From the NCBI RefSeq assembly GCF_003086295.3, contig NC_092054.1:35184393-35248392 (forward strand): DNA of 64,000 bases. The letters are read 5' to 3'. Source of the stretch: Arachis hypogaea. Lineage: Eukaryota; Streptophyta; Magnoliopsida; Fabales; Fabaceae. The notes under the pieces are model-generated. The model made no database searches, had not been told where the DNA came from, and saw nothing but the letters and a program-made list of their open reading frames with translations. Below, in pieces: positions 1 through 60,880 of this stretch (position 1 is the first letter of the stretch; each line of letters opens with the position of its first letter). A program made the position numbers and the translations under genes.

Positions 1-364
1 GTGAAGAACAAAAATTAGAAAGCATGATTAGAGAAGGATAGAGTGATTACCCTATACACTAGAGAGATTAGAGTGCACACACACCATCAGTAAGGGTTCA
101 ATGCTCAACTCCATGTTCCTTGCTTTCACAAGCTGTCTTCTTACAAATTTACTCGCTTTTACTGTATGATTTAAACTAGTGAAATCTGCTCTATGTTCTG
201 TCTTAGAGAACTTATTTATTTTAATCAGATAGACAAAATCATATAATTGCATTCATGTATATAGGTTGCATTGCATTGCATGAGTCTTACATACCCCTAT
301 TCATTCATTTTTACCTCCTTCAACTAAGCATGAGGACATGCTAATGTTTAAGTGTGGGGAGGTT
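1..364 (+). mobile_element. Element C: 3' end of the internal region
   Basis: Non-coding tail of an Athila-type element whose body lies left of the window. It matches by eye the tail of element G on the other strand (around 42950-43300), including the stretch about the start of the hairpin. A hairpin AGCATG-AGGA-CATGCT at 327-342 is followed by a polypurine tract at 348-363 and then the LTR. The short ORF on the minus strand here has no recognisable product. Confidence 0.7.
327..364 (+). promoter_or_regulatory. Hairpin plus polypurine tract of element C
   Basis: The stem AGCATG/CATGCT with loop AGGA lies five bases before TTAAGTGTGGGGAGG, which abuts the LTR start at 365. The purine-rich run is the expected primer for plus-strand DNA synthesis during reverse transcription. 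The hairpin is not part of the textbook tract, but it recurs in G and B (see findings). Confidence 0.7.
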
Positions 365-5139: not shown

Positions 5140-6278
5140 GGTGGTCTGTTGTTGATTAAGAAAGATTTGAAAACAAGATAAGATAGAAAAATTGAAAAAG
5201 ATTTGATTTTGAAATTTGAAAATTGAAATTGAATCAAGATAAGATAAGATTATGAAAATTGAATTTTAAAATCTGAATTTAAAACAAGATAAGATCAAGA
5301 TTTGAAAAAGATTTGATTTTTGAACAGATTTGAAATTTAAAATTAAGATAAAATAAGATAACGATTTGAAATTAAATGAAAGATAACAAAAGATAAGATA
5401 AAGATTTGAAAAAAAAGTTTTGAATTTTAAACTTTAAAAGAAAGATAAGATGAGATAGAATCAAATTAAAAGAAAGATATGATAAGATATAAAAAGATAA
5501 GATTTGAAATTTGATTTTTGAAATTAAGATAACATAAGATAATGATTTTGAAATTAAAATTTGAAATTGTGTTTGAAATTTTCGAAAATAATTTTGAAAT
5601 AAAGATAGAAAATATATTTTTTTATTTTTTGAATTAATAAGGAAAGAGAAAAACAACCAAAAGACACCAAACTTAAAATTTTTAGATCTAAAACACTAAG
5701 TTTTCAAAAATTTAAAAAGAAGAACACCAAAAGACACCAAACTTAAAAATTTTAAGATCAAAACAAGAAAAGAAACAAGAACAACTTGAATACCAAGAAA
5801 GAACACTAAGATGATTTTTGAAAATTTAAAGCAAATAAAGAACAACAAAAAGACACCAAACTTAGAAACTTTGAAAATCAAAGACACTAATTTCAAAAAT
5901 TTTAAAGGAAAATACTCAAAGACACTAAACTTAAAAATTTTGAAATCAAAGACTCTAATTTTCGAAAAGAAAAGAAAAGAAACTTAAAGATTCAAGATGA
6001 CTCAAAAAGACACCCAACTTAAAGATTGACACAAGACTCAAACAAAAGATACTATTTTTGAAAATTTTTGGAAAGAAAGCAAAAAAATTGGAAACTTTAA
6101 CAAGAACAAGAATAAGAACAACGACTCAAACAAAAGATAAAGATCAATAAAGAAAACAAAGATTTTTTTATTTTTTTTATTTTTTTTGAAAAAAAAAGAA
6201 AATAAAAGACTCAAACAAATTTAAAAGGTACCTAATCTAAGAAACAAGATAATCCATTTGTTTGTCAAATCCGAACAA
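5140..6278 (-). other. AT-rich 5' leader of element D
   Basis: Low-complexity leader made of AAGATAAGATAA, TTTGAAATT and AAAACAAGAAC runs. Minus-strand ORFs here are rich in Phe, Leu, Ser and Lys because of the composition and are not genes. Confidence 0.7.
5640..6020 (-). repeat. Leader repeats with CACCAAACTTA (AAGTTTGGTG) in element D
   Basis: Copies of the motif begin near 5663, 5733, 5851, 5921 and 6010 (plus coordinates), so spacings alternate about 70 and 118. The same alternation is seen in the H leader. The DNA between is A/T-rich with TTTTCGAAAA-like palindromes. Confidence 0.6.
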
Positions 6279-13366: not shown

Positions 13367-15165
13367 TTGTTCGAGTTTGGACAACTGACGGTTCATCTTG
13401 TTGCTCAGATTAGGTAATTTTCTTCTTATTATCTTTTCAAAAGAAAAATTTCGAAAATCTTTCAAAAATTTCTCATCTGTTTTCGAAAATTATTCTAAAA
13501 TTTTTTAAGAATGAATTCTAGTGTTTCATAGAGCATGTTGAAGCCTGACTGGCTGTAAAGCCATGTCTAAATTCATTTGGACTGGGACTCCCAACCCAAT
13601 ATTATTAAGAGCAAGCTAGTTGTTGCTAATCCACCTGCTGCTGTTTCTGATCCACCTGATTTACATGCTAAAGCTTGACTGGCTATTAAGCCATGTCTAA
13701 CCCTCAGATTGGAGCTTTAGACTAAGAATGCAAGATTCCTGGAATTCATATTAAAAATTTTGGAATCCTTATTTTTCTTTTTCACAAATAATTTTCGAAA
13801 AAATACAAAAAAATTAGAAAATCATAAAAATAAAAAAAATATTTCATGTTTCTTGTTTGAGTCTTGAGTCAAATTGTAAGTTTGGTGTCAATTGCATATT
13901 CATTTTGCATTTTTCGAAAAAATCATGCATTCATAGTGTTCTTCATGATCTTCAAGTTGTTCTTGGTGAATCTTCTTGTTTGATCTTGATGTTTTCTTGT
14001 TTTGTGTCTTTTCTTGTTTTTCATATGCATTCTTGAATTCTTAGTGTCTAAGCATTAAAGATTTCTAAGTTTGGTGTCTTGCATGTTTTCTTTGCATCAA
14101 AATTTTTTCAAAAATATGTTCTTGGTGTTCATCCTGACATTCAAAGTGTTCTTGGTGTTCATCTTGACATTCATAGTGTTCTTGCATTCATCACATATTT
14201 TGATCCAAAATTTTCATGCATTGCATCATTTTCATGTTTTTCTCTCTCATCATTAAAATTTCAAAAATGAAAAAAATATCTTCCCTTTTTTCTCTCTCAA
14301 AATTTCGAAAATTAGATTTGATTTTTTTCAAAAATTTTTAAAATTCAATTGTTTCTTATGAGTCAAATCAAATTTTCAATTTAAAAATCTTATATTTTTC
14401 AAAATCTTTTTTAAAAATCAAATCTTTTTCATTTTTTTATTTATTTATTTTCAAAAATTTTAAAAATATTTTTTAAAAATCTTTTTCTTATCTTTATCAC
14501 ATAATTTTCGAAAATAACATCATCAATTAATGTTTTGATTCAAAAATTTCAAGCTTGTTACTTGCTTGTTAAGAAAAATTCAAACTTTAAGTTCTAGAAT
14601 CATATCTTGTGATTTCTTGTGAATCAAGTTATTAATGGTGATTTTAAAAATCAAATCTTTCTCAAAACTAATTTCAATCATATCTTTTCAAAAATATCTT
14701 TTTATCTTATCTTTTTCAAAATCATATCTTTTTCAAAAATTTGATTTTAAAATATCTTTTCTAACTTTTTATCTTTTCAAAATTGATTTTCAAATTTGTT
14801 TCAACTAACTAACTAACTTTTTGTTTGTTTCTTATCTTTTTCAAAACTACCTAACTAACTCTCTCTCTCTAATTTTCGAAAATATCTCCCTCTTTTTCAA
14901 AAATTCTTTTTAATTAACTAATTGTCTCAAAATTCAATTTTAATTTATTTCTTCTTTTAATTTTCGAAAATTCTCTTTCTCTCTCATCTCATTCTATTTA
15001 TTTATTCATCTACTAACATCCCTCCCTCACTCACCAAAAATCCGAACCCTCTCTCTCTGAGTTCAGATTTTCTCTTCTTCTTTTCTTCTACTCACATAAG
15101 AGAACCTCTATACTTGGGTAAAAAGGATCCCTATTATTATTATTTTTCTATTCCCTCTTTTTCAT
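13367..15165 (+). other. AT-rich 5' leader of element A
   Basis: 1.8 kb of T/A-rich DNA before gag. Copies of TAAGTTTGGTGTC occur at 13877 and 14065, 188 bp apart. Palindromes of the type AATTTTCGAAAATT are frequent. A phrase 'gcttgactggcta(t)taagccatgtctaa' occurs near 13543 and 13671. No coding sequence is seen. Confidence 0.7.
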
Positions 15166-17487
15166 ATGAGCAGGAACAAGGACAAGAATATTCTTGTTGA
15201 AGCAGATCCAGAACCTGAAAGGACTCTGAAGAGGAAACTAAGAGAAGCTAAATTGCAACAATCCAACAAGCACCTTTTAGAAATTTTCGAACAGGAAGAG
15301 GAGATGGCAGCCGAAAATAATAATAATACAAGGAGGATACTTGGTGACTTTACTGCACCTAATTCCAATTTACATGGAAGAAGCATCTCCATCCCTACCA
15401 TTGGAGCAAACAACTTTGAGTTGAAACCTCAATTAGTTTCTCTGATGCAGCAGAACTGCAAGTTTCATGGACTTCCATCTGAAGATCCTTTTCAGTTCTT
15501 AACTGAATTTTTGCAGATCTGTGATACTGTTAAGACTAATGGAGTAGATCCTGAAGTCTACAGACTCATGCTTTTCCCTTTTGCTGTAAGAGACAGAGCT
15601 AGAGTGTGGTTAGACTCTCAACCCAAAGATAGCCTGAACTCTTGGGATAAGCTGGTCACGGCTTTCTTAGCCAAGTTCTTTCCTCCTCAAAAGCTGAGCA
15701 AGCTTAGAGTGGATGTTCAAACCTTCAGATAGAAAGAAGGTGAATCCCTCTATGAAGCTTGGGAGAGATACAAGCAACTGACCAAAAAGTGTCCTTCTGA
15801 CATGCTTTCAGAATGGACCATCCTGGATATATTCTATGATGGTCTGTCTGAATTAGCTAAAATGTCATTGGATACTTCTGCAGGTGGATCCATTCACCTA
15901 AAGAAAACACCTGCAGAAGCTCAAGAACTCATTGACATGGTTGCTAATAACCAGTTCATGTACACTTCTAAGAGGAACCCTGTGAGTAATGGGACGCCTC
16001 AGAAGAAGGGAGTTCTTGAAATTGATACTCTGAATGCCATATTGGCTCAGAACAAAATATTGACTCAGCAAGTCAATATGATTTCTCAGAGTCTGAATGG
16101 AATGCAAGCTGCATCCAACAATACTCAAGAGGCAGTTTCTGAAGAAGAAGCTTATGATCCTGAAAACCCTGCAATAGCAGAGGTGAATTACATGGGTGAA
16201 CCTTATGGAAACACCTATAGCCCCTCATGGAGAAATCACCCAAATCTCTCATGGAAGGATCAACAAAAGCCTCAACAAGGCTTTAATAATGGTGGAAGAA
16301 ACAGGTTTAGCAATAGCAAGCCTTTTCCATCATCCACTCAGCAACAGACAGAGAACTCTGAACAAAATACCTCTAATTTAGCAAACTTGGTCTCTGATCT
16401 ATCTAAGGCCACTGTGAATTTCATGAATGAAACAAGGTCCTCCATTAGAAATTTGGAAGCACAAGTGGGCCAGCTGAGTAAGAAGATCACTGAAACCCCT
16501 CCTAGTACTCTCTCAAGCAATACAGAAGAAAATCCAAAAGGAGAGTGCAAGGCCATTGATATAACCATCATGGGCGAATCCAAGGAAGAAGGGGAGGACG
16601 TGAATCCCAAGGAGGAAGACCTCCTGGGACGTCCAGTGATCAATAAGGAGTTTTCCTCTGAGGAACCAAAGGAATCTGAGACTCAACTAGAGACCATAGA
16701 GATTCCATTAAACCTCCTTATGCCATTCATGAGCTCTGATGAGTATTCCTCTTTCAAAGAGAATGAGGATGTTACTGAGGAGCAAGTTACCAAGTACCTT
16801 GGTGCAATTATGAAGCTGAATGCCAAATTATTTGGTATTGAGACTTGGGAAGATGAACCTCCCTTGTTCACCAATGAACTGAGTGATCTGGATCAACTGA
16901 CATTGCCTCAGAAGAAACAGGATCCTGGAAAGTTCCTAATACCTTGTACCATAGGCACCATGATCTTTGAAAAGGCTCTGTGTGACCTTGGTTCAGGGAT
17001 AAACCTCATGCCCCTCTCTATAATAGAGAAACTGAGAATCTTTGGGATGCAAGCTGCTAAAATCTCATTAGAGATGGCAGACAATTCAAGAAAATAGGCT
17101 TATGGACAAGTAGAGGACGTATTAGTAAAGGTTGAAGGCCTTTACATCCCTGCTGATTTCATAGTCCTAGATACTGGGAAGGATGAGGATGAATCCATCA
17201 TCCTTGAAAGACCCTTCCTAGCCACAGCAAGAGCTGTGATTGATGTTAACAGAGGTGAACTAGTTCTTCAATTGAATGAGGACTCTCCTCAAGGACATCC
17301 TTCTGTAAACATGGAAAAGAGGCACAGTAAGCTTCTCTCAAAACAGAGTCAACCAGAGCCCCCACAGTCAAACTCTAAGTTTGGTGTTGGGAGGCCACAA
17401 CCAAACTCTAAGTTTGGTGTTGAACTCCGATATCCAAACTCTAAGTTTGGTGTTGGGGAGTCTCAACAATGCTCTGAACATCTGTGA
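15166..17487 (+). pseudogene. gag-pro: Element A gag-protease polyprotein
   Basis: ATG at 15166 (MSRNKDKN). The first 188 codons hold the capsid core (FHGLPSEDPFQFLTEFL ... LMLFPFAVRDRARVWLDSQP). An in-frame TAG at 15730-15732 interrupts it; the frame resumes at once and runs 15733-17094, with the capsid C-terminus, a Gln/Asn/Ser-rich linker without a CCHC knuckle, and a coiled segment (16378-16490). The protease begins CDLGSGINLMPLS at about 16981. A second TAG (17095-17097) follows. The flap region reads ILERPFLATAR, where D has ILGRPF, so the Gly is lost. The tail holds three NSKFGV repeats (17374-17455) and stops at 17487. Both stops look like Gln codons changed by C-to-T. Gag would form the particle and the protease would mature it. 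Confidence 0.88.
17374..17455 (+). repeat. Triple CTAAGTTTGGTGTTG in protease tail
   Basis: Copies at 17374, 17408 and 17441, each translated NSKFGV in the same frame. This is the same motif that abuts the 3' LTR at 19693. Confidence 0.85.
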
Positions 17488-18180: not shown

Positions 18181-18234
18181 TTGCTCGAGGGCGAGCAACA
18201 TTCTAAGTTTGGTGTGGTAAAAGCATAAGCTTTT
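18181..18234 (+). promoter_or_regulatory. Hairpin + AAGTTTGGTGT module before A accessory ORF
   Basis: TTGCTCG-AGGG-CGAGCAA (18181-18198), then CTAAGTTTGGTGT (18203-18215), then AAAAGC-ATAA-GCTTTT (18219-18234), then the ATG near 18251-18254. Confidence 0.7.
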
Positions 18235-19669: not shown

Positions 19670-19707
19670 GTTGCTTGGGGACAAGCAACAATTTAAGTTT
19701 GGTGTTG
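19670..19707 (+). promoter_or_regulatory. Hairpin and PPT-position motif of element A
   Basis: GTTGCTTG-GGGA-CAAGCAAC (19670-19689), then TTTAAGTTTGGTGTTG ending at 19707, directly against the LTR. The site is where the plus-strand primer must be, but it is not polypurine. Confidence 0.75.
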
Positions 19708-21454
19708 TGATGAGCGGATAATTTATACGCTTTTTGGCATAGTTTTTAGTAGAATCTAGTTACTTTTAGGGATGTTTTTATTAGTTTTTATGCTAAATTC
19801 ACATTTCTGGACTTTACTATGAGTTTGTGTGTTTTTCTATGATTTCAGGTATTTTCTGGCTGAAATTGAGGGACTTGAGCAAAAATCAGATTCAGAGGTT
19901 GAAGAAGGACTGCTGATGCTGTTGGATTATGACCTCCCTGCACTCAAAGTGGATTTTCTGGAGCTACAGAACTCAAAATGGCACGCTTCTAATTGCGTTG
20001 GAAAGTAGACATTCAGGGCTTTCCAGAAATATATAGTAGTCCATACTTTGGGCGAGTTTAGATGACGTAAAAGGGAGTTGAATGCCAATTCTACGTTGCT
20101 GTCTAGAGTTAAACGCCAGAAACACGTCACGAACCAGAGTTGAACGTCAGAAACACGTTACAACCTGGCGTTCAACTCCAGAAAGAGCCTCTGCACGTGT
20201 AACATTCAAGCTCAGCCCAAGCACACACCAAGTGGGCCCCGAAAGTGGATTTATGCATCAATTACTTACTTCTGTAAACCCTAGTAACTAGTTTAGTATA
20301 AATAGGACTTTTTACTATTGTATTAGGATCTTTTGAAAGATCCTGGATTGTATTTTTGATCCTGTGATCACGTTTTGGGGGCTGGCCATTCGGCCATGCC
20401 TGAACCTTTCACTTATGTATTTTTCAACGGTAGAGTTTCTACACTCCATAGATTAAGGTGTGGAGCTCTGCTGTTCCTCATGAATTAATGCAAAGTACTA
20501 CTGTTTCTCTATTCAATTCAACTTATTCCGCTTCTAAGATATTTATTCGCACTTCAATATGAATGTGATGAATGTGACAATCATCATCATTCCCCCACGA
20601 ACGCGTGCCTGACAACCACTTCCATTCCACCTTAGATTGAATGAGTATCTCTTGGATCTCTTAGTGAGAATCTTCGTGGTATAAGCTAGATTGATGGCGG
20701 CATTCATGAGAGTCCGGAAAGTCTAAACCTTGTCTGTGGTATTCCGAGTAGGACTCTGGGATTGAATGACTGTGACGAACTTCAAACTCGCGAGTGCTGG
20801 GCGTAGTGACAGACGCAAAAGGAGGGTGAATCCTATTCCAGTATGATCGAGAACCTCAGATGATTAACCGTGTTGTGACAGAGCATTTGGACCATTTTCA
20901 CAAGAGGATGGGATGCAGCCATTGGCCACGGTGATGCCTCCAGATGATTAGCCATGCAGTGACAGCGCATCGGACCATTTTCATAGAGAGGATGAAAAGT
21001 AGCCATTGACAATGGTGATGTCCTTACATAAAGCCAGCCATGGAAAGGAGTAGGACTGATTGGATGAAGACAGCAGGAAAGCAGAGGTTCAGAAGAACGA
21101 AAGCATCTCTATACGCTTATCTGAAATTCTCACCAATGAATTACATAAGTACTTCTATCCTTATTTTCTATTTATTTATTATTATTCGAAAACTCCGTAA
21201 CCATTTGATATCCGCCTGACTGAGATTTACAAGGTGACCATAGCTTGCTTCATACCGACAATCTCCGTGGGATCGACCCTTACTCACGTAAGGTTTTATT
21301 ACTTGGACGACCTAATGCACTTGCTGGTTAGTTGTGCGAAGTTGTGAAGTTATGTTTGGACCATGGTTCTGTGCATCTGTTTTTGGTGCCATTGTCAGGG
21401 AAAGAACGAACAAATAATTTTACAACCTAATCTGAGTAGTAATTTCGCATACCA
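19708..21454 (+). repeat. Element A 3' LTR (1747 bp)
   Basis: Same ends as the 5' LTR, followed by CAACT. TATA box 20297-20304 and palindrome array 20075-20180. The truncated copy at 32559-34194 shares several variants with this LTR and not with the 5' one (for example GATGA..ACAATC near 20570). Confidence 0.93.
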
Positions 21455-21660
21455 CAACTATAGGCATTGAGGTAGAAGCTCCTGGCAGCTCAGCAGAACT
21501 AATTAATTGTCGGATAAAGACACTCATTAGATCTTTATTAGTAAATTTTATTCTCTCTCGTGCTTTTTACTTAATCTTTCCTCTATAGTATATAAGAACT
21601 AGTTGATTGTGTTTGCCACTCTATACAACACCAAATGTTGTGTATGTATTTATAGGTCAT
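21455..21660 (-). pseudogene. Upstream part of the MuDR-type pseudogene
   Basis: Minus strand 21545-21455 reads SSAELPGASTSMPIV in the frame that joins the piece at 11596 once A and one CAACT copy are removed. The remainder up to 21660 shows no clear coding. B is inserted at GTCAT (21656-21660). Confidence 0.55.
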
Positions 21661-23133
21661 TGATAAACCACTATTTTATGGTTTATATTGTGTTTAATTG
21701 TGTGGTTTTATCATGATCCTTACCCACTTATTCATTAAATTAGCATGAAATTATAATTCCTTCCTGAATTTATAACATGTTTGAAAACTGCTTCCTAGAG
21801 ACTTTAATTATGTATTTTTAATTCTCCTTTATTCCATTCGATGCCGTGATCTGTGTGTTGAATGTTTCAGACTTTATAGGGCATGAATGAATTGGAGATT
21901 GGAAAGGAAGCTAGCAAAAATGGAAGGAACACAAGAATTTGAGGGGATAACCAGCGAGAAGTGACGTGGTCGCATGGCTCACGCGACCGCGCGAAGGAGA
22001 GCAAATCGCAGTGACGCGGCCACATGGCTCACGCGGCCGTGCAGATTGGAAAAGCTTAGGCGACGCAGTAGCGTGGACGATGCGAACGCGTGGCAAGGAA
22101 AAGCGCGAATGACGCGTCCGCATGGATGACGCGATCGCGTGACATGTGCGATCTGCATAATCTGCAGACTTCGCTGGGGGCGATTTTGGACCTTATTTCG
22201 ACCCAGTTTTCGGCCCGAAACAGCAGACTAGAGCCAGAGAATATGTAGAAACAAAAGACAGCATTCATTCTACATAATTGACAGTTTTTAGATCTAGTTT
22301 TTCCTCCTCTAGGTTTTAGAATTTTACTTTTGGAATTGATCTAAGCATTGGAACATTGAGAAGAGTTATTTTTCCTCATCAAGACTTCGTCATTCTAGTT
22401 CGCTCTCTTAACTTGGTTTTATTCTTCCATGTTCTTTGCTTTGTTCAATTTTGTTATTTGAATATTTTCATGATTATTTTATACAAGGATTATTTCTCCC
22501 ATTTTAATTTATTTTCCATTCCAATAATCATGTCTTCTTTTAATTCCCTTTCATGTGTTATGGATTTATTATTTGCAATGAGTGAGTAGTTTCCCCACTT
22601 GATGGGGAGTTGATTGAAAGGAACTCTTGAGTTGGAAGGATTGAAAGAAAAATTGTAATTGGGTTAACTGTTGGATTCTTATCTAATCACTAACACCAAT
22701 CCCTTTGAACTAAGTGGGTTGTAACTCGTGAATAGATCTAGCATTTCAATTTGTTTGACTTTCCTTTACCTAGTAAGGGATAACTAAACAGAACAACCAT
22801 TAGTTATAAATTAATCTTGAAATCATCCCATCAATAATAGAGATTCCAACTAATCAACTCCTAGTCAAGGCTTTTATTCATATTATTTAAATTTTCTCTT
22901 TTTAATTTTCCCTCTACTTAACTCAACTTCTTGGAACATCTGATTAATAAAATAGCACACTTTTCTGCAACTCGTTGGGAGACGACCTGGGACTTAAACT
23001 CACAGTAATTTTTAATTTAAACTCTCTGTGACATATTTCTAAATTGATAGGCAGATTTTCGGTGAGTTAAGAACTATACTTGCAACGTAACCATTTTAAT
23101 AATTTTTAATTCACCAACTTCTGCCCCTCATCA
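21661..23133 (+). repeat. Element B 5' LTR (1473 bp)
   Basis: TGATAAACCACTATTT ... CCCCTCATCA. A palindrome array of GACGCG...CGCGTGG type lies at 21961-22146. Confidence 0.92.
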
Positions 23134-23138
23134 ATTTT

Positions 23139-23156
23139 TGGCGCCGTTGCCGGGGA
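23139..23156 (+). other. Primer binding site of element B
   Basis: TGGCGCCGTTGCCGGGGA, an exact match to the complement of the tRNA-Asp 3' end as I know it, five bases after the LTR. Confidence 0.92.
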
Positions 23157-30225: not shown

Positions 30226-31479
30226 ATGGCCACCAAGAAAGGAAAGGAGAAAGCGACTCCTAAACCCCCAGCAAGAAGAGGCACTAAAAGAGCATTAGTG
30301 GCAGAACCCTCTTCAACCGCAGTCAAGCCCTCAACAAAAAGAGTTAAGAGGATAATAAAGGTTGATGAAAAGGAGAAAGCCTTTCCAGCAAAGGACACTG
30401 TGTGATTTTCCAATCGCTACTATGAGCAGATGTTCCCTATCCTGGCAGAAAGGAACTATAACAATGAATACTTTCTTATCCTCCCGTCCAATATTGCTAC
30501 CTTTGTTGAGCCGCAAATTGAACGAAGACAATGGGGTTTCCTACGGAGACAGCCAAGGCAGGTCAATCTTTCTTGGGTAGTTGAGTTCTACTCTAACTTC
30601 TACATGCCCACCCTGCAGTCTGTTTATGTCCGGCAGAAGCAAGTCCCCATCACAGAAGAGGCGATTCAGCAAGCTCTGAGTCTTCCCCCTATTCCAGAAG
30701 GAATGGACGCCTTCCAAGAAGCCACACTTAAGCGCCAGAGGTACCAATTTAACTGGGACTCCGTTCTCGGAGTTATCGCATTACCTGGCAACTGTTGGAT
30801 CTACGGATACCACCGTACCCACCCTAAGAGAATCTTGGCTTCAGCACTTACCTTGGAGGCTCGCGTATGGGCACAGATTATGTCCCATTACGTCTTTCCG
30901 AGTACTCATGAGTCCTCCTTCACTGCGGACATGGCCGTTCTACTATGGTGCATCCTTACAGACCAACCTCTGAATCTCTCAAGACATATCCGGAATGCTA
31001 TGGGACACGTACAAATTGCGAGCAACTTACCTTTTCCCGCCTTGGTCTCTGATCTTATCTCAGCAGCCGGAGTCTCCTACAGAGTTGGGGACACCAAAGC
31101 CGTGCTTCCACGGGATGGTCAGTATGTCCCTAACGAGAAATACCTCAGACTTCCAGCAGCCACTACAAGTCTTCTTACTGCTCCAGTTGAAGATAATCCT
31201 TCTTCAACACCACAAGCACCCACAACTGATGAATTGCTCCAGCAGATAATCGAAAGGTTGGATCGGCAAGAACACAAAGCTAAGTTGAGAGAGCGCCGTA
31301 ACGAGCGCCGATTCAAACACCTCAAGGAGCTACTCAAGGGACACTTCAGGGACTCAGATACCCCGGACTCGACTTCTTTTACCAGCACAGGGAGCCATGA
31401 CGGTCCCGACTGTGGAGATACTACCACCAGCCCACCCCTGTTCCTGACAGACGGCACCGAGGACGGTGCAAAGCCTTAA
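30226..31479 (+). pseudogene. Accessory ORF of element B (env-position, putative plant transposon protein)
   Basis: 417 codons from ATG 30226 (MATKKGKEKATPKPPARRG, lysine-rich and probably nucleic-acid binding or nuclear), one in-frame TGA at 30403-30405, then open to the stop at 31477-31479. The middle (FSNRYYEQMFPILAERNYNNEY ... WGFLRRQP ... VVEFYSNFYMP ... YVRQKQVPITEEAIQQAL) is the domain widely annotated as putative plant transposon protein. A charged coiled segment (LLQQIIERLDRQEHKAKLRERRNERRFKHL) sits near residues 340-370. No signal peptide or membrane helix is obvious, so it is not a typical envelope. The stop overlaps the hairpin-PPT module. The TGA looks like a CGA arginine codon changed at CpG. 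G keeps only both ends of this ORF. Confidence 0.8.
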
Positions 31480-31491
31480 GTGTGGGGAGGT
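31454..31491 (+). promoter_or_regulatory. Internal hairpin + polypurine-like module of element B
   Basis: GCACCG-AGGA-CGGTGC (31454-31469) lies in the last codons of the accessory ORF, followed by TTAAGTGTGGGGAGGT (31476-31491), identical to the tract at the 3' LTR of C and G. Confidence 0.75.
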
Positions 31492-32558: not shown

Positions 32559-34194
32559 TATGAGTTTGTGTGTTTTTCTGTGATTTCAGGTATTTTCTGG
32601 CTGAAATTGAGGGACTTGAGCAAAAATCAGATTCAGAGGTTGAAGAAGGACTGCTGATGCTGTTGGATTCTGACCTCCCTGCACTCAAAGTGGATTTTCT
32701 GGAGCTACAGAACTTAAAATGGCGCGCTTCCAATTGCGTTGGAAAGTAGCATTCAGGGCTTTCCAGCAATATATAATAGTCCATACTTTGGGCGATTTTA
32801 GACGACGTAAAAGGGAGTTGAACGCCAATTCTACGCTGCTGTCTAGAATTAAACGCTAGAAACACGTCACGAACCAGAGTTGAACGCCAGAAATACGTTA
32901 CAACCTGGCGTTCAACTCCAGAAAGAGCCTCTGTACGTGTAACATTCAAGCTCAGCCCAAGCACACACCAAGTGGGCCCCGGAAGTGGATTTATGCATCA
33001 ATTACTTACTTCTATAAACCCTAGTAACTAGTTTAGTATAAATAGGACTTTTTACTATTGTATTAGGATCTTTTGGAAGATCCTGGATTGTATTTTTGAT
33101 CCTGTGATCACGTTTTGGGGGCTGGCCATTCGGCCATGCCTGAACCTTTCACTTATGTATTTTTCAACGGTAGAGTTTCTACACTCCATAGATTAAGGTG
33201 TGGAGCTCTGCTGTTCCTCATGAATTAATGCAAAGTACTACTGTTTCTCTATTCAATTCAACTTATTCCGCTTCTAAGATATTTATTCGCACTTCAATAT
33301 GAATGTGATGAACGTGACAATCATCATCATTCCCCCACGAACGCGTGCCTGACAACCACTTCCGTTCCACCTTAGATTGAATAAGTATCTCTTGGATCTC
33401 TTAGTCAGAATCTTCGTGGTATAAGCTAGATTGATGGCGGCATTCATGAGAGTCTGGAAAGTCTAAACCTTGTCTGTGGTATTCCGAGTAGGACTCTGGG
33501 ATTGAATGACTGTGACGAACTTCAAACTCGCGAGTGCTGGGCGTAGTGACAGACGCAAAAGAAGGGTGAATCCTATTCCAGTATGATCGAGAACCTTAGA
33601 TGATTAGCCGTGCTGTGACAGAGCATTTGGACCATTTTCACAAGAGGATGGGATGCAGCCATTGGCCACGGTGATGCCTCCAGATGATTAGCCATGCAGT
33701 GACAGCGCATTGGACCATTTTCACAGAGAGGATGAAAAGTAGCCATTGACAATGGTGATGTCCTTACATAAAGCCAGCCATGGAAAGGAGTAGGACTGAT
33801 TGGATGAAGACAGCAGGAAAGCAGAGGTTCAGAAGAACGAAAGCATCTCTATACGTTTATCTGAAATTCTCACCAATGAATTGCATAAGTACTTCTATCC
33901 TTATTTTCTATTTATTTATTATTATTCGAAAACTCCATAACCATTTGATATCCGCCTGACTGAGATTTACAAGGTGACCATAGCTTGCTTCATACCGACA
34001 ATCTCCGTGGGATCGACCCTTACTCACGTAAGGTTTTGTTACTTGGACGTCCCAGTGCACTTGCTGGTTAGTTGTGCGAAGTTGTGAAGTTATGTTTGGA
34101 CCATGGTTCTGTGCATCCGTTTTTGGTGCCATTGCCAGGGAAAGAACGAACAAATAATTTTACAACCTAATATGAGTAGCAATTTCGCATACCA
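32559..34194 (+). repeat. 5'-truncated copy of the A LTR
   Basis: Corresponds to A 3' LTR from about 19818 to its end (21454), followed by the same CAACT and the same flank as A. It lacks the first 108-110 bp of the LTR. TATA 33037-33044 and array 32815-32915. This is not an independent insertion: the flank proves it is a duplicated genomic segment. Confidence 0.9.
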
Positions 34195-34400
34195 CAACTA
34201 TAGGCATTGAGGTAGAAGCTCCTGGCAGCTCAGCAGAACTAATTAATTGTCGGATAAAGACACTCATTAGATCTTTATTAGTAAATTTTATTCTCTCTCG
34301 TGCTTTTTACTTAATCTTTCCTCTATAGTATATAAGAACTAGTTGATTGTGTTTGCCACTCTATACAACACCAAATGTTGTGTATGTATTTATAGGTCAT
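34195..34400 (-). pseudogene. Duplicated MuDR pseudogene piece and flank
   Basis: Copy of 21455-21660, starting CAACTATAGGCATTG and ending TATAGGTCAT. It carries the same minus-strand SSAELPGASTS reading. Confidence 0.75.
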
Positions 34401-35872
34401 TGATAAACCACTATTTTATGGTTTATATTTTGTTTAATTGTGTGGTTTTATCATGATCCTTACCCACTTATTCATTAAATTAGCATGAAATTATAATTCC
34501 TTCCTGAATTTATAACATGTTTGAAAACTGCTTCCTAGAGACTTTAATTATGTATTTTTAATTCTCCTTTATTCCATTCGATGCCGTGATCTGTGTGTTG
34601 AATGTTTCAGACTTTATAGGGCATGAATGAGTTGGAGATTGGAAAGGAAGCTAGCAAAAATGGAAGGAACACAAGAATTTGAGGGGATAACCAGCGAGAA
34701 GTGACGCGGTCGCATTTCTCACGCGACCGCGCGAAGGAGAGCAAATCGCAGTGACGCGGCCGCATGGCTCACGCAGCCGCGCGGATTGGAAAAGCTCAGG
34801 CGACGCGGTAGCGTGGACGACGCGAACGCGTGGCAAGGAAAAGCGCGAATGACGCGTCCGCATGGATGACGCGATCGCGTGACATGTGCGATCTGCATAA
34901 TCTGTAGACTTCGCTGGGGGCAATTTTGGACCTTATTTCGACCCAGTTTTCGCCCGGAACAGCAGACTAGAGCCAGAGAATATGCAGAAATAAAAGACAG
35001 CATTCATTCTACACAATTGACAGTTTTTAGATCTAGTTTTTCCTCCTCTAGGTTTTAGAATTTTACTTTTGGAATTGATCTAAGCATTGGAACATTGAGA
35101 AGAGTTATTTTTCCTCATCAAGACTTCGTCATTCTAGTTCGCTCTCTTAACCTGGTTTTATTCTTCCATGTTCTTTGCTTTGTTCAATTTTGTTATTTGA
35201 ATATTTTCATGATTATTTCATACAAGGATTATTTCTCCCATTTTAATTTATTTTCCATTCCAATAATCATGTCTTCTTTTAATTCCCTTTCATGTGTTAT
35301 GGATTTATTATTTGCAATGAGTGATTAGTTTTCCCACTTGATGGAGAGTTGATTGAAAGGAACTCTTGAGTTGGAAGGATTGAAAGAAAAATTGTAATTG
35401 GGTTAACTGTTGGATTGTTATCTAATCACTAACACCAATCCCTTTGAACTAAGTGGGTTGCAACTCGTGAATAGATCTAGCATTCCAACTTGTTTGACTT
35501 TCCTTTACCTAGTAAGGGATAACTAAACAGAACAACCATTAATTATAAATTAATCTTGAAATCATCCCATCAATAATAAAGATTCCAACTAATCAACTCC
35601 CAATCAAGGCTTTTATTCATATTATTTAAATTTCCTCTTTTTAATTTTTCCTCTACTTAACTCAACTTCTTGGAACATCTGATTAATAAAATAGCACACT
35701 TTTCTGCAACTCGTTGGGAAACGACCTGGGACTTAAACTCCTAGTCATTTTTAATTTAAACTCTCTGTGACATATTTCTAAATTGATAGGCAGATTTTCG
35801 GTGAGTTAAGAACTATACTTGCAACGTAACCATTTTAATAATTTTTAATTCACCAACTTCTGCCCCTCATCA
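34401..35872 (+). repeat. Second B LTR (1472 bp), solo-like
   Basis: Near-identical by eye to 21661-23133, flanked on both sides by GTCAT (34396-34400, 35873-35877), with no primer binding site after it. A palindrome array lies at 34700-34887. It can be read as a solo LTR or as the 3' LTR of B separated from its interior by the duplicated A-LTR segment. Confidence 0.88.
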
Positions 35873-41484: not shown

Positions 41485-42933
41485 TGATGTTAGGATTTTT
41501 GCCAGTAAAGAATGTCATAAAAACAGTCGCGTTGTAGATATAGTCTCTAAACCGACAAAAATCCCTTCGTACAAATGTTTTGGTTGTCACAAGTAACAAA
41601 CCCCTTTAAAATTGATAACCGAGTATTCAAACCTCGGGTTGTCTTCTCAAGGAATTGCAGGGAAGTATGTTCTTATTATTGGTTATGAAGATTGTAAATT
41701 GGGGGTTTTGGAAGTTTGGGCAATGCGCACAGGTATATTTTCGAGCAATAAAAATAAATAAATAACTGTAAAATAAACTCTTGGCAAGGTATGAGAAATT
41801 GAAAGTCCTATCCTGGTTATCCTTATCAATTGTGATGAGAATTGGATTTTTCTCCCACTTTGTTATCCTCTAACTATGCAGGTAAGTTAAGTATATGAAT
41901 TAATTCTGATTCCTCAGGTCCTAGTCTTTCCTTGGGAAAGGCTAGAGTTATTGGAACTTGAATTAATTCCTGAAGAATTTCAATTTTCAATCAATAATGA
42001 GTTTGATAACTCAAGTGTGTTCAATGACTCAACCAAAGCCAAAAGAGAAAAATGCCTACTTGAATGAAAATAATTTGGATACACAAAGAGCAGTAATAAA
42101 TTAAAGAGAACAATCATAAGTCTGAAAATACCTCAAATTATATTAAATAAAGAAATCAATTCTAACATGGAGTTCATAAATTAAATTGAGAAAGTAAATA
42201 AAGATAAAGAACCTGGGATTGAGAGTCACTCCTAAAACTAAGAGAAATCCTAAATCCTAATCCTAAGAGAGAGGAGAGAACCTCTCTCTCTAAAAACTAC
42301 ATCTACTCCTAAAATTGTGAATTATGTGAGCCTCCTTATGAATGGATGCATTCCCCTACTTTATAGCCTCTAATCTGTGTTTTCTGGGCCGCAAACTGGG
42401 TCAGAAACAGTCCAGAATTCGCTGGTTTCGAATTTTAATGCGCTGATTTCCGTCACTGCGATGCGGCCGCATGAATCATGCGGTCGCGTCACCTAGCATT
42501 AAGGGAACTATAGCACATTATATATCAAATCGAAGCCCCGGATGTTAGCTTTCCAACGCAACTGAAACCGCGTCGTTTGGACCTCTGTAGCAAAAGTTAT
42601 AGCCATTTGAGTGCAGAGAGGTCAGGCTGGACAACTTAGCAATTTCTCCAACTTCTTGCATTCCTTCCACTTTTGCATGCTTTTTTCCCATCCTCCAAGC
42701 CATTCCTGCCTTATAATATCTGAAAACACTTAACACATATATCAAGGCATCTAATGGTAATAAGAGAGGATTAATAATAAGCAAATATAAGATCAAAGAA
42801 GCATGTTTTCAATCAAAGCACATAATTAGGAAGGCAAACGTAAAACCATGCAAATAGTATGAATAAGTGGGTAAAGAGTTAATAAAAACCACTCAATTGA
42901 GCACAAGATAAACCATAAAATAGTGGTTTATCA
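41485..42933 (-). repeat. Element G 3' LTR
   Basis: TGATGTTAGGATTTTT ... GTGGTTTATCA on the plus strand. A small GACGCG-type cluster lies at 42451-42491. ORFs within are duplicated in the other LTR and are not genes. Confidence 0.92.
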
Positions 42934-42972
42934 ACCTCCCCACACTTAAACATTAGCATGTCCTCATGCTAA
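42934..42972 (-). promoter_or_regulatory. Hairpin plus polypurine tract of element G
   Basis: Minus strand TTAGCATG-AGGA-CATGCTAA (42953-42972), two bases, then TTTAAGTGTGGGGAGGT against the LTR. Eight perfect pairs. Confidence 0.8.
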
Positions 42973-44321
42973 GCTCAAGAGAAGCTATAAAGATGAAGAG
43001 GAATGGTAGAATGTATGAAATGTAACCTATGAATGTAACTACATGCAAAATGTTTCTACCTACTTAGTTAAAAGTAAACAAATCTTTCAAGAGGAAATAT
43101 GAACTGGATTTCACTAATTCAAATTATGAAAACGAAGTACAAATAGACTTGCGAGAAAAAAATAGCTCATGAAAGCATGGAACAAGGAATTGAGCATCGA
43201 ACCCTCACTGGTAGTGTATACACTCTAATCACTCAAGTGTTTTTAGGTTCGATTCTCTCAATTCTCTACTAACCTTGCTGTCTAAGGCTTGCTCTTCATC
43301 TAGCAATCAACATAAATTTGATACACAAATACACAAATCAAGAGGTCTTTTAAGGGTTGTAATGGGGTTAGGGTCAAGGTAGGATTGTATTTGGCCAAGT
43401 GGACTAAAATCTGAATTCTTAATTAATCTTAAACTTTCCACCTAACTTTAGACAATCCATGTAATCATAATACCACATCTAACTATCCATTAACCATGTT
43501 TTCCACATATTCATGCATTCTAATTTCAAGTACAGTACATATGCATTGCTTTCACCATTTACTTTGGGGTATTTTTTTCTTTTTCTTTTGTTTTTCTCAA
43601 TGCATATGATTAATTTATTGAATGCATGAACATATTCTCAACATTCTTTCACATTTTCAGAAAATTCTAGCATACTCAATTATCAAACCAAATGTTTCCA
43701 AACCCAATTTCCCACACTTAAATCATAAGCACTCTTACTAGTCTAAGCTAACTAAGGATTCAAATTTAAGGACATTATTGTTTTCTGCTTAGAGTTAATG
43801 ATGTGCTAAAGTAAAGAACACAGGGGTAAAATAGGCTCAAATTGGTTTGCAAGGGATAATGAAGGGTTAAGGCCATATGGGTATGTAAGCTCAGTGAACA
43901 AAGGCCTCAATCATATAAGTGTATGCATACATCAAACCATGGAAATATAGAATTAAGCAAGACAAAGATCACAATTTTAGAGAGAAAAATACACACTAAA
44001 ACAAAATTTTTGGTTGATAAAATGCAACCAATTCAAATAGGCTCAAAATCTCACAGGTTTTGTGTGTTCGAGGTCTAAACCATGTTCCAGTATAATATTT
44101 CTTCAAACAAGTGTAACATTAAATTTTATTCAAATTAGTGAAATTTTCTAAAAGGTTTCTTGGAAAAGAAAATATTACTTTAACCAAGTGGTAAAATATG
44201 CAAAAAAAAAAAAAAAAATCAAATAAATATGCAATTAAATATGCAAATGCAACAACTAACAAGAAAAATAAACCATTGGTGTTTGAGATAGGAAGGTACT
44301 AACCCACGGAGATCGGTATCG
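42973..44321 (-). other. Non-coding tail of element G
   Basis: AT-rich and colinear with the tails of B and C; no gene. It includes an A-run at 44200-44218. Confidence 0.6.
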
Positions 44322-44472
44322 ACCTCCCCACACTTAAAGATTGCACCGTCCTCGGTGCATGCTGAGATGTGCAGGTGGACGGGGGTTGTGGTTCCTCAGC
44401 TGGGGCTCTTTTTGTTCCTTTCCTTGCTGGTAGTTTGGGAGTAGCTTTCTCTTTACCTTTCTTGGTGGCCAT
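44299..44472 (-). pseudogene. Remnant of the accessory ORF in element G
   Basis: Minus strand ATG at 44472 gives MATKKGKEKATPKLPARKGT, like B, then after about 35 codons joins sequence matching the last codons of the B ORF in another frame. The core (more than 300 codons in B) is deleted. An ATG 12 codons upstream is probably not used because the AG and pyrimidine tract lie between. Confidence 0.65.
44322..44359 (-). promoter_or_regulatory. Internal hairpin + polypurine-like module of element G
   Basis: Minus strand TGCACCG-AGGA-CGGTGCA (44342-44359), then TTTAAGTGTGGGGAGGT (44322-44338). It is the same as in B although the ORF around it is deleted. Confidence 0.75.
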
Positions 44473-45129
44473 CCTAAAAAAAGGGAAGAGAAAGTAAATT
44501 AAATTCAAAGAGATATATATAGCAAGGAAGAGAACGGAAAAGGTGTTGATGGATGCACATTAAGATATAACTGACATTAACACATGCTCACGAGTACATG
44601 TGAAAAAGCCATCAATGGAAAATAGCTAGTGCATATAAGGACAAGTGAATGCAAGGTGTTTATTGGCATGCCGGCAAAGGACATGAGTAGCATAGACCAA
44701 GCATTACTTGTAATAAATCACCATGTTTGTATTGACAATTATATTCAATTAATAAAATAGTAAAGAGAGTTTATGAAAAGCAAGCATTGAATAGTATAAA
44801 GTAAAATAGAGAAGTGCATAATGCCATATGGGCTTTTTCACAAACACATAGCATGCATAGTAAATAAGCTATTTGAAAGTATTAAATTGAACATGCAAGC
44901 AACCCTTTAAAAAGTAATATATAATTGTCAAACCATTTTAATAATCCAAAAATATAGAAAAATAATGACCCAAATAAATTTCTAACACCAATGAAAATAA
45001 TGCAATGAATGAAAGTATGCAAATAAATGAAATAAAATAGAATGGAAGTGAAAGAAAATAAGAAAGGAAGAAGAAAGAAATAAGAAAAGAGAAGAAAAAT
45101 AAGGATTAGGGAAGAAAAGATAAGAAAAT

Positions 45130-47765: not shown

Positions 47766-47783
47766 TCCCCGGCAACGGCGCCA
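47766..47783 (-). other. Primer binding site of element G
   Basis: Minus strand TGGCGCCGTTGCCGGGGA, tRNA-Asp type, three bases from the LTR. Confidence 0.92.
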
Positions 47784-47786
47784 TTT

Positions 47787-49235
47787 TGACGTTAGGATTT
47801 TTGCCAGTAAAGAATGTCATAAAAACAGTCGCGTTGTAGATATAGTCTCTAAACCGACAAAAATCCCTTCGTACAAACGTTTTGGTTGTCACAAGTAACA
47901 AACCCATTTAAAATTGATAACCGAGTATTCAAACCTTGGGTCGTCTTCTCAAGGAATTGCAGGGAAGTATGTTCTTATTATTGGTTATGAAGATTGTAAA
48001 TTGGGGGTTTTGGAAGTTTGGGCAATGCGCACAGGTATATTTTCGAGCAATAAAAATAAATAAATAACTGTAAAATAAACTCTTGGCAAGATATGAGAAA
48101 TTGAAAGTCCTATCCTGGTTATCCTTATCAATTGTGATGAGAATTGGATTTTTCTCCCACTTTGTTATCCTCTAACTATGCAGGTAAGTTAAGTATATGA
48201 ATTAATTATGATTCCTCAGGTCCTAGTCTTTTCTTGGGAAAGGCTAGAGTTATTGGAACTTGAATTAATTCCTGAAGAATTCCAATTTTCAATCAACAAT
48301 GAGTTTGATAACTCAAGTGTGTTCAATGACTCAACCAAAGCCAAAAGAGAAAAATGCCTACTTAAATGAAAATAATTTGGATACACAAAGAGCAGTAATA
48401 AATTAAAGAGAGCAATCATAAGTCTGAAAATACCTCAAATTATATTAAATAAAGAAATCAATTCTAACATGGAGTTCATAAATTAAATTGAGAAAGTAAA
48501 TAAAGATAAAGAACCTGGGATTGAGAGTCACTCCTAAAACTAAGAGAAATCCTAAATCCTAATCCTAAGAGAGAGGAGAGAACCTCTCTCTCTAAAAACT
48601 ACATCTACTCCTAAAATTGTGAATTATGTGAGCCTCCTTATGAATGGATGCATTCCCCTACTTTATAGCCTTTAATCTGTGTTTTCTGGGCCGCAAACTG
48701 GGTCAGAAACAGTCCAGAATTCGCTGGTTTCGAATTTTAATGCGCTGATTTCCGTCACTGCGACGCGGCCGCATGAATCATGTGGTCGCGTCACCTAGCA
48801 TTAAGGGAACTATAGCATATTATATATCAAATCGAAGCCCCGGACGTTAGCTTTCCAACGCAACTGAAACCGCGTCGTTTGGACCTCTGTAGCAAAAGTT
48901 ATAGCCATTTGAGTGCAGAGAGGTCAGGCTGGACAACTTAGCAATTTCTCCAACTTCTTGCATTCCTTCCACTTTTGCATGCTTTTTTCCCATCCTCCAA
49001 GCCATTCCTGCCTTATAATATCTGAAAACACTTAACACATATATCAAGGTATCTAATGGTAATAAGAGAGGATTAATAATAAGCAAATATAAGATCAAAG
49101 AAGCATGTTTTCAATCAAAGCACATAATTAGGAAGACAAACGTAAAACCATGCAAATAGTATGAATAAGTGGGTAAAGAGTTAATAAAAACCACTCAATT
49201 GAGCACAAGATAAACCATAAAATAGTGGTTTATCA
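47787..49235 (-). repeat. Element G 5' LTR
   Basis: TGACGTTAGG ... GGTTTATCA, same length as the other LTR. The few differences seen include C/T at the fourth base. Confidence 0.92.
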
Positions 49236-49323: not shown

Positions 49324-49341
49324 TGGCGCCGTTGCCGGGGA
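49324..49341 (+). other. Primer binding site of element F
   Basis: TGGCGCCGTTGCCGGGGA six bases after the LTR F end at 49317. Leader follows until H at 49489. Confidence 0.9.
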
Positions 49342-51264: not shown

Positions 51265-51650
51265 TTAAGTTTGGTGTCTTGTTGGTTTTTCTTTCCTTTA
51301 GTTTTTCGAAAACTATTCTTGGTGCTCTTCCTTGTATTCGAAATTGTTCTTGCTATTTTTCCTATTTGATTTTAAAAATTCTAAGTTTGGTGTCTTTTAG
51401 TGTTTTTCATTTAAAATTTCCGAAATTGGTGTCCTTGATTTCCAAAAGTTTTAAGTTTGGTGTCTCTTTGCATTTTTTTTCTTAAATTTTCGAAAAGTGT
51501 TCTTGAGTGTTCTTCATTGTGTTCGGATTGTTCTTGGTATTTTTCTTAGTTTGATCTTAAAATTTTCAAGTTTGGTGTCTTTTTATGTTTTTCCTCCAAA
51601 ATTTTCGAAAATTATAGCCTTTAATTTCAAAATTTTTTAAGTTTGGTGTC
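51265..51650 (+). repeat. 186-bp higher-order leader repeat in H
   Basis: AAGTTTGGTGTC motif copies begin near 51265, 51381, 51451, 51567 and 51637, spacings 116, 70, 116, 70. Two 186-bp units (51265-51450, 51451-51636) plus the start of a third. Each has TTTTCGAAAA-type palindromes between motifs. The leader then continues at 56218 after I. Confidence 0.75.
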
Positions 51651-60843: not shown

Positions 60844-60880
60844 GTTGCTTGGGACAAGCAACAGTTTAAGTTTGGTGTTG
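60844..60880 (+). promoter_or_regulatory. Hairpin and PPT-position motif of element H
   Basis: GTTGCTTG-GGA-CAAGCAAC (60844-60862), then TTTAAGTTTGGTGTTG ending at 60880 against the LTR. Confidence 0.75.

Follow-up and report, generated by a model that had tools for sequence, protein, structure and literature searches.

A hairpin-tract module present twice in peanut retroelements and its possible role in plus-strand priming

Hairpin and tract in the elements of the window

How the RNase H of retroelements finds the plus-strand primer is unsettled: for Ty1, section 18 of PMC2829016 reports that the polypurine tract (PPT) alone is insufficient for correct RNase H processing and proposes a nearby secondary structure as the signal. 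The window analyzed here, a stretch of 64,000 nucleotides from Arachis hypogaea (contig NC_092054.1, positions 35,184,393 to 35,248,392), poses this question in concrete form. Do the short hairpins that lie just upstream of the primer tracts in its retroelements form a unit with them, and what could such a unit do? A sequence-only reading of the window had quoted four pairs of hairpin and tract in elements B, C and G, assigned to a lineage 1, and had proposed that a second lineage shares the arrangement. We recovered all four pairs, namely, that of C, that of B, and the terminal and internal pairs of G. The features are as follows (MFE, minimum-energy structure; z, fold z-score of the context; aORF, additional ORF situated 3' of pol and 5' of the 3' LTR).

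41485-42933 and 47787-49235, minus strand: LTRs of G, 98.7% identical to each other
42934..42950, minus strand: terminal tract of G (PPT site), adjoining the 3' LTR, whose start TGATAAACC is at 42933
42953..42972, minus strand: terminal hairpin of G, TTAGCATG-AGGA-CATGCTAA, part of the MFE fold, z -3.11
44322..44338, minus strand: internal tract of G, 1388 nt upstream of its terminal tract
44342..44359, minus strand: internal hairpin of G, TGCACCG-AGGA-CGGTGCA, part of the MFE fold, z -2.92
327..342, plus strand: terminal hairpin of C, AGCATG-AGGA-CATGCT, outside the MFE fold of its 81-nt context, z -2.08
347..363, plus strand: terminal tract of C, followed by a single T and by the LTR start at 365
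21661-23133 and 34401-35872, plus strand: LTRs of B
30406..31479, plus strand: aORF of B, PF20167 (Transposase_32), with the internal module at its end
31454..31469, plus strand: internal hairpin of B, GCACCG-AGGA-CGGTGC, within the final aORF codons, part of the MFE fold, z only -0.50
31475..31491, plus strand: internal tract of B with one mismatch, containing the aORF stop TAA (31477-31479)
18181..18198, plus strand: lineage-2 internal hairpin, TTGCTCG-AGGG-CGAGCAA, 4-nt gap, tract from 18203, in the MFE fold
19670..19689, plus strand: lineage-2 terminal hairpin, GTTGCTTG-GGGA-CAAGCAAC, 3-nt gap, tract from 19693, in the MFE fold
60844..60862, plus strand: lineage-2 terminal hairpin, GTTGCTTG-GGA-CAAGCAAC, loop of 3 nt, 3-nt gap, tract from 60866

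Element G is flanked on both sides by the 5-bp target duplication GAACG. It was said to carry a second module about 1.4 kb upstream of the terminal one and to keep the module although the overlapped ORF is deleted, and both statements hold: the tract spacing agrees, both pairs of hairpin and tract are in place, and the aORF position has no ORF of at least 180 amino acids. A scan of 42800-44500 against Rfam gave zero matches up to E = 1. A degenerate third copy of the tract lies between the two modules of G (43706-43722, minus strand), without an RGGR hairpin (R, A or G), and has counterparts at L072:524, L084:1608 and L090:4705. The primer-binding site (PBS) of G is an exact 18-nt match at 47766-47783, 3 nt past the LTR, and that of B, equally exact, lies at 23139, 5 nt past the LTR; both are of the tRNA-Asp type. 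Another exact PBS of this type is found near the 5' LTR of G on the opposite strand (49324-49341, plus). Calypso and Diaspora have a tRNA-Asp PBS 5 bp past the LTR, according to the passage of PMC1142308 that deals with them.

Within the window, C is represented by its 3' end only, and both its aORF position and its internal site would fall beyond the edge. Comparison of C with G gave 30/30 identical positions across the module (331-360), against 18/30 and 21/31 in the two preceding 30-nt windows, and the LTR start is likewise conserved (27/30). In both elements the terminal tract ends 0-1 nt from the LTR start TGATAAACC, thus abutting the LTR in the manner of a PPT. Element B carries the internal module only, and lacks a terminal one because its 3' end, from 32559 on, has been replaced by a copy of the sequence preceding its 5' LTR. 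The duplicated block spans 3316 columns (19818-23133 and 32559-35872, 97.6% identity), comprises a portion of a lineage-2 LTR with its flank together with the B LTR, and in its second copy displaces the 3' internal end of B. GTCAT stands 5' of both copies of the B LTR and 3' of the 3' LTR. It is as if a full copy of B had been fused to a version of that locus reduced to a solo LTR.

A lineage-2 aORF in the window belongs to the same family as that of B (PF20167), and the hairpin at 18181..18198 lies upstream of a likely aORF start. The tract of this lineage is GU-rich, not polypurine, and the terminal copy beginning at 19693 is followed by the LTR start TGATGAGCGG at 19708. Upstream of gag, lineage-2 stretches repeat TTAAGTTTGGTG(T) several times, and no RGGR hairpin accompanies these copies (5676-6022, minus strand; 13876-14065 and 51265-51637, plus strand), and similar pre-gag stretches occur in L072, L073, L076, L079 and L083. 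The lineage-2 linker at 17375-17452 (plus strand) contains CTAAGTTTGGTGTTG three times at a spacing of 33 nt; comparable arrays have three units in L073, L076 and L088 and two in L083.

Frequency, pairing and spacing of the hairpin

Four copies of TTTAAGTGTGGGGAGGT in the window, that of B being off by one letter, begin 2-5 nt 3' of an AGGA-loop hairpin. Conversely, eight AGGA hairpins were found in the window with a stem of at least 5 bp, G-U allowed, and the tract follows in four of them, which are the quoted four. The host assembly holds 30,404 exact copies of the tract (15,216 + 15,188), compared with 3 of the reversed pattern. We sampled 60 regions from the head of the tract list, all on a single contig, and obtained 79 of the 30,404 copies, which a script divided into 46 with an LTR-like flank (class T) and 33 with an internal-like flank (class I), an imperfect split that placed at least one internal copy (L070) in class T. 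A perfect stem of at least 6 bp with a 4-nt loop, within 45 nt upstream, was present in 39/46 class T and 20/33 class I copies. The sequence-only reading had called for a comparison with shuffled sequence: dinucleotide shuffles give such a stem in 0.87% (class T) and 0.61% (class I) of cases, hence below 1%, against 59 of the 79 real copies, an outcome that favors that reading. The 45 nt downstream of the tract contain stems of at least 5 bp in 4/46 class T and 1/33 class I copies. When G-U pairs and stems from 5 bp upward are allowed, a stem is found at the site in 68 of the 79 copies and is absent from the other 11. Internal and terminal copies are paired in 18 sampled loci, 1403-1769 nt apart.

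A second sample, made up of 20 stretches that were each 10 kb long and placed at round coordinates (200 kb), was approached from the side of the hairpin. With stems of at least 6 bp, the tract comes next in 12 of 17 RGGR-loop hairpins versus 2 of 515 other hairpins, and the loops of these two, AAGA and AGAA, are each one change away from AGGA. We sorted the 57 tract-like sites of this sample by hand according to their flanks. Hairpins accompany lineage-1 sites in 4/4 terminal and 2/4 internal cases and lineage-2 sites in 6/6 terminal and 3/4 internal cases; at two of these hairpin-bearing sites the loop is off by one letter. The other 39 sites, comprising lineage-2 leader and linker copies, the third lineage-1 copy and strays, have no RGGR hairpin with a stem of at least 4 bp within 40 nt, and 3 of the 39 have a different stem of at least 5 bp. 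The hairpin is therefore not simply carried along with the tract. We conclude that hairpin, short gap and tract are a real, selected-looking cis module.

Is pairing what is kept in the stem itself? We anchored sites on an RGGR ending 8-13 nt before the tract, ignoring the stem, and found at least 5 Watson-Crick pairs in 79 of the 99 sites so defined. The 33 distinct arm pairs, which include one mis-anchored 3-nt-loop hairpin, are 86% paired over six positions, versus 47% when the 3' arms are re-dealt (standard deviation, 5.5; highest of 2000, 68%). As the copies are related, re-dealing overstates independence, and independent compensatory events must be fewer than the counts. Six of seven stem positions show at least two Watson-Crick pair types, and the loop-closing pair is G-U in 4 and unpaired in 6 of the 33 distinct forms, one of the 6 being the mis-anchored case. 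The stems comprise TAGCATG, AAGCATG, TGCACCG, AGCACGG, AGCATCG, TTGCTTG and TTGCTCG, as well as ACATTG in L001, and all except the last have the frame GC...G[loop]C...GC in common. To call the stems unrelated, as had been done, was therefore too strong, and the loop described as a constant AGGA also occurs as GGGA, AGGG and the 3-nt GGA, so that RGGR describes it better. Between families, the letters of the two arms vary together so that pairing is preserved, which suggests, as far as comparison of the copies can tell, a working signal for primer making.

The placement of the hairpin is nearly invariant. In lineage 1, 42 of 48 places where a tract meets an LTR have a 4-nt-loop stem of at least 5 bp, and the distance from loop end to LTR is 26, 27 and 28 nt in 19, 22 and 1 of them. 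Six of the seven lineage-2 places have a 4-nt-loop stem, in every case 26 nt from the LTR. The base of the stem lies 18-22 nt from the LTR. The distance from the internal site to the 3' end is looser: 1388 nt (lineage 1) and 1490 nt (lineage 2) in the window, and 1508, 1833 and 2331 nt in three lineage-2 cases of the 200-kb sample. The internal module overlaps the aORF stop in lineage 1 and precedes the aORF start in lineage 2; these opposite sides and its presence in G, which has no aORF, imply that the module is independent of the ORF.

Pyrimidines make up 77-78% of the 22 nt that precede the terminal hairpins and 71% of the corresponding stretch in 30 internal copies, compared with 50% in the window. 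Pairing of this stretch with the tract, hinted at by the folds of C and L001, was rejected as a specific feature because 56 distinct upstream 25-mers have a mean of -9.5 kcal/mol versus -10.3 for shuffles. In context folding, the hairpin is within the minimum-energy structure in 5 of 7 cases, being absent from it in C and L001, and z-scores range from -3.1 to -0.5, the weakest being that of B.

Classification of the two lineages and their relatives

The tRNA-Asp-type PBS just 3' of the LTR in B and G and the aORF of B agree with a placement of lineage 1 in the Athila clade of Ty3/gypsy elements. The reverse transcriptase (RT) of B is 66% identical to that of L001, 61-71% identical to two peanut RTs and 31% identical to that of L075, in a set that contains no named Athila reference. 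C and G have no RT within the window, and the window's lineage-2 copies gave no RT match. L079 is grouped with the window's lineage 2 by its leader motif, its internal module and a PF20167-like aORF below the Pfam cut-off. Its RT is 71% identical to that of B and 74% to that of L001 (a second L079 RT aligned across 19 residues only), whereas the RT of L075 is only 31-35% identical to those of B, L001 and L079. An additional RNase H (aRH) marks the Tat lineage. The pol pieces after the L079 RT gave only RT_RNaseH, RT_RNaseH_2 and integrase domains, so that an RNase H of this kind was not found in them; the term aRH is among those listed in PMC6317226. By these comparisons lineage 2 tests as Athila-like, and the earlier equation of lineage 2 with Tat is not supported. 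Of the claim that two lineages share the module, its double occurrence in G and in the 18 paired loci stands, but sharing between Athila and Tat is unsupported, given the Athila-like RT of lineage 2 and the lack of an extra RNase H in L079.

A search of other plants had also been proposed, and one non-peanut element bears on it. L001 and L002, which are 99.6% alike, are copies of a plant Athila-like element in the bacterial assemblies NZ_QPKJ02000021.1 and NZ_JABGCL010000066.1; their RTs reach identities of up to 84% with unnamed contigs and of up to 77% with named flowering plants among the 120 matches listed, and the presence of a plant element in these two CPCC-strain assemblies is evidently contamination. 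The module of L001 is ACATTG-AGGA-CAATGT, a 5-nt gap and TTAAGTTGGGGGGAGG, and no LTR start was recognized 3' of this tract. The second tract of L001 (6239) has no stem of at least 5 bp nearby; this non-peanut element carries the module at one of its two tracts. These two were among three loci retained from 148 candidate stretches of genome_contigs; the third, L003, has a distant RT (32%) and one AGGA hairpin without a tract. Viral contigs contained neither the exact tract nor a confirmed RT relative, the phage collection gave no RT match, and the plasmid collection gave three distant ones (29-41%).

Plus-strand priming, other explanations and known systems

The arrangement, its two positions, the matched stem differences and the nearly fixed distance from loop to LTR can be read directly from the copies. 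Position, duplication and structure together point to plus-strand priming, and on balance we think it probable that the module acts in cis, as RNA, in this process, helping to define the primer both at the 3' LTR and at a second, internal site. In order, a stretch rich in pyrimidines would be followed by a hairpin of ~6-9 bp whose loop reads G-[A/G]GG[A/G]-C, by a gap a few nucleotides long and by the plus-strand primer tract. One copy lies at the 3' LTR, and another, ~1.4-1.5 kb upstream (more in some copies), would serve as the internal primer. During minus-strand synthesis, the reverse transcriptase would copy the tract and then meet the hairpin, which, by pausing the enzyme or by being bound, may position RNase H to release the tract as a primer by cutting at the LTR junction. 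Tract copies elsewhere in lineage-2 elements, where the hairpin is lacking, would go unused. HIV-like spacing between polymerase and RNase H fits the distance between stem base and LTR. The spacing of the Ty3 RT, ~13 bp in the passage of PMC5371799 that gives it, does not, and we therefore keep both stalling and docking. Also speaking against this reading are the 11 of 79 copies without a stem, the folds of C and L001 together with the weak z-score of B, the hairpin-less second tract of L001 and the GU-rich tract of lineage 2.

A bolder and rather doubtful extension is that the hairpin acts as a licence mark: of the several tract copies in these elements, which in lineage 2 include leader and linker copies, only those preceded by an RGGR hairpin would be cut out and used, RNA structure and not the tract alone thereby setting primer choice. 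With a matched-stem hairpin at a near-fixed distance from the primer, and hairpin-less tracts as built-in controls, the question becomes directly testable in abundant plant elements. The hairpin would also serve annotators as a signal for Athila 3' ends and internal primers.

Other functions would place different demands on the module. The hairpins might be binding sites for Gag or nucleocapsid, or serve RNA dimerization or packaging, with a purine loop exposing G and the closeness of the tract being secondary. Retroviral nucleocapsid zinc knuckles do bind exposed loop G's, and the G-rich loops, mostly closed by G-C, and the two copies per element suit such a role; yet signals for packaging tend to lie close to the 5' end, and packaging would not need a loop-to-LTR distance that varies by no more than 2 nt, and we regard this explanation as unlikely. 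A role in RNA expression, be it the end or start of aORF translation, splicing or 3' processing, seems quite improbable. It could draw on B, whose internal hairpin encodes the last aORF codons with the stop inside the tract, and on the residues ED (GAGGAC in B), kept in 12 of 14 tail-reaching homologues among the 24 listed, a conservation at the protein level only. However, the hairpin is at the end of the PF20167 aORF in lineage 1 but before its start in lineage 2, is present in the aORF-less G and recurs at the 3' LTR.

It is also improbable, in our judgment, that the module is an inherited block without present function, whether an old duplicated 3' end with a palindrome kept by descent, or a DNA palindrome bound as duplex. 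The copies are indeed related by descent, and the upstream flanks of internal and terminal copies look similar by eye, but matched differences occur in both arms, the loop is asymmetric and lies on one strand, and tract copies exist without hairpins. The peak of identity between C and G over the module argues in the same direction, with the reservation that the LTR start is conserved as well (27/30).

The module belongs to a known kind, that of PPT accessory structures combined with a duplicated PPT, of which the hairpin form seen in peanut is apparently undescribed in the literature searched. The earlier statement that no standard annotation covers the arrangement stands in part: the duplicated PPT is already in print (PMC2829016), while we found no description of the hairpin in the open-licence PubMed Central literature searched. 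In the same literature, the tract and hairpin strings led to no title recognizable as being about these elements, and a term search of PMC2410132 gave no occurrence of PPT, polypurine or hairpin.

Wright and Voytas (2002), cited as reference 35 in PMC2829016, reportedly described a further PPT within the linker of Athila4 and of Calypso. Section 17 of PMC2829016 likewise places an extra PPT copy in the linker of env-containing Athila-type elements, naming these two; the peanut elements resemble them in having a second copy there, but the passage mentions no hairpin, whereas the peanut elements have one. The same section refers to HIV-1 and Ty1, whose coding domains contain another functional PPT; the peanut elements would match them in having two plus-strand primer sites, predicted in their case. 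Unlike in HIV-1 and Ty1, the internal site of the peanut elements lies about 1.4-1.5 kb from the 3' LTR. We know of no hairpin of the peanut kind at the second PPT of HIV-1 or Ty1.

Closer in structure are the Sireviruses (Ty1/copia), in which an inverted repeat around the terminal PPT has been proposed to guide RNase H (PMC2829016, section 8). They share with the peanut elements a precisely placed, PPT-linked structure and several PPT copies, and we propose the same task for the peanut hairpin, in a different geometry. As described in that source, the right arm of the Sirevirus repeat falls within the LTR, the loop holds the PPT, and PPTs farther upstream have no repeat. In the peanut module, by contrast, both arms precede the tract and a separate hairpin accompanies the internal copy, and by the position of its arms the module does not match the Sirevirus-type inverted repeat. 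The Conserved Hairpin Site of the fungal GalEa elements, as presented in PMC5445492, is also a conserved hairpin at a junction of LTR and internal region with a presumed role in transposition; it differs in lying directly 3' of the 5' LTR, in elements with no PBS, and in having 12-41 bp between its arms.
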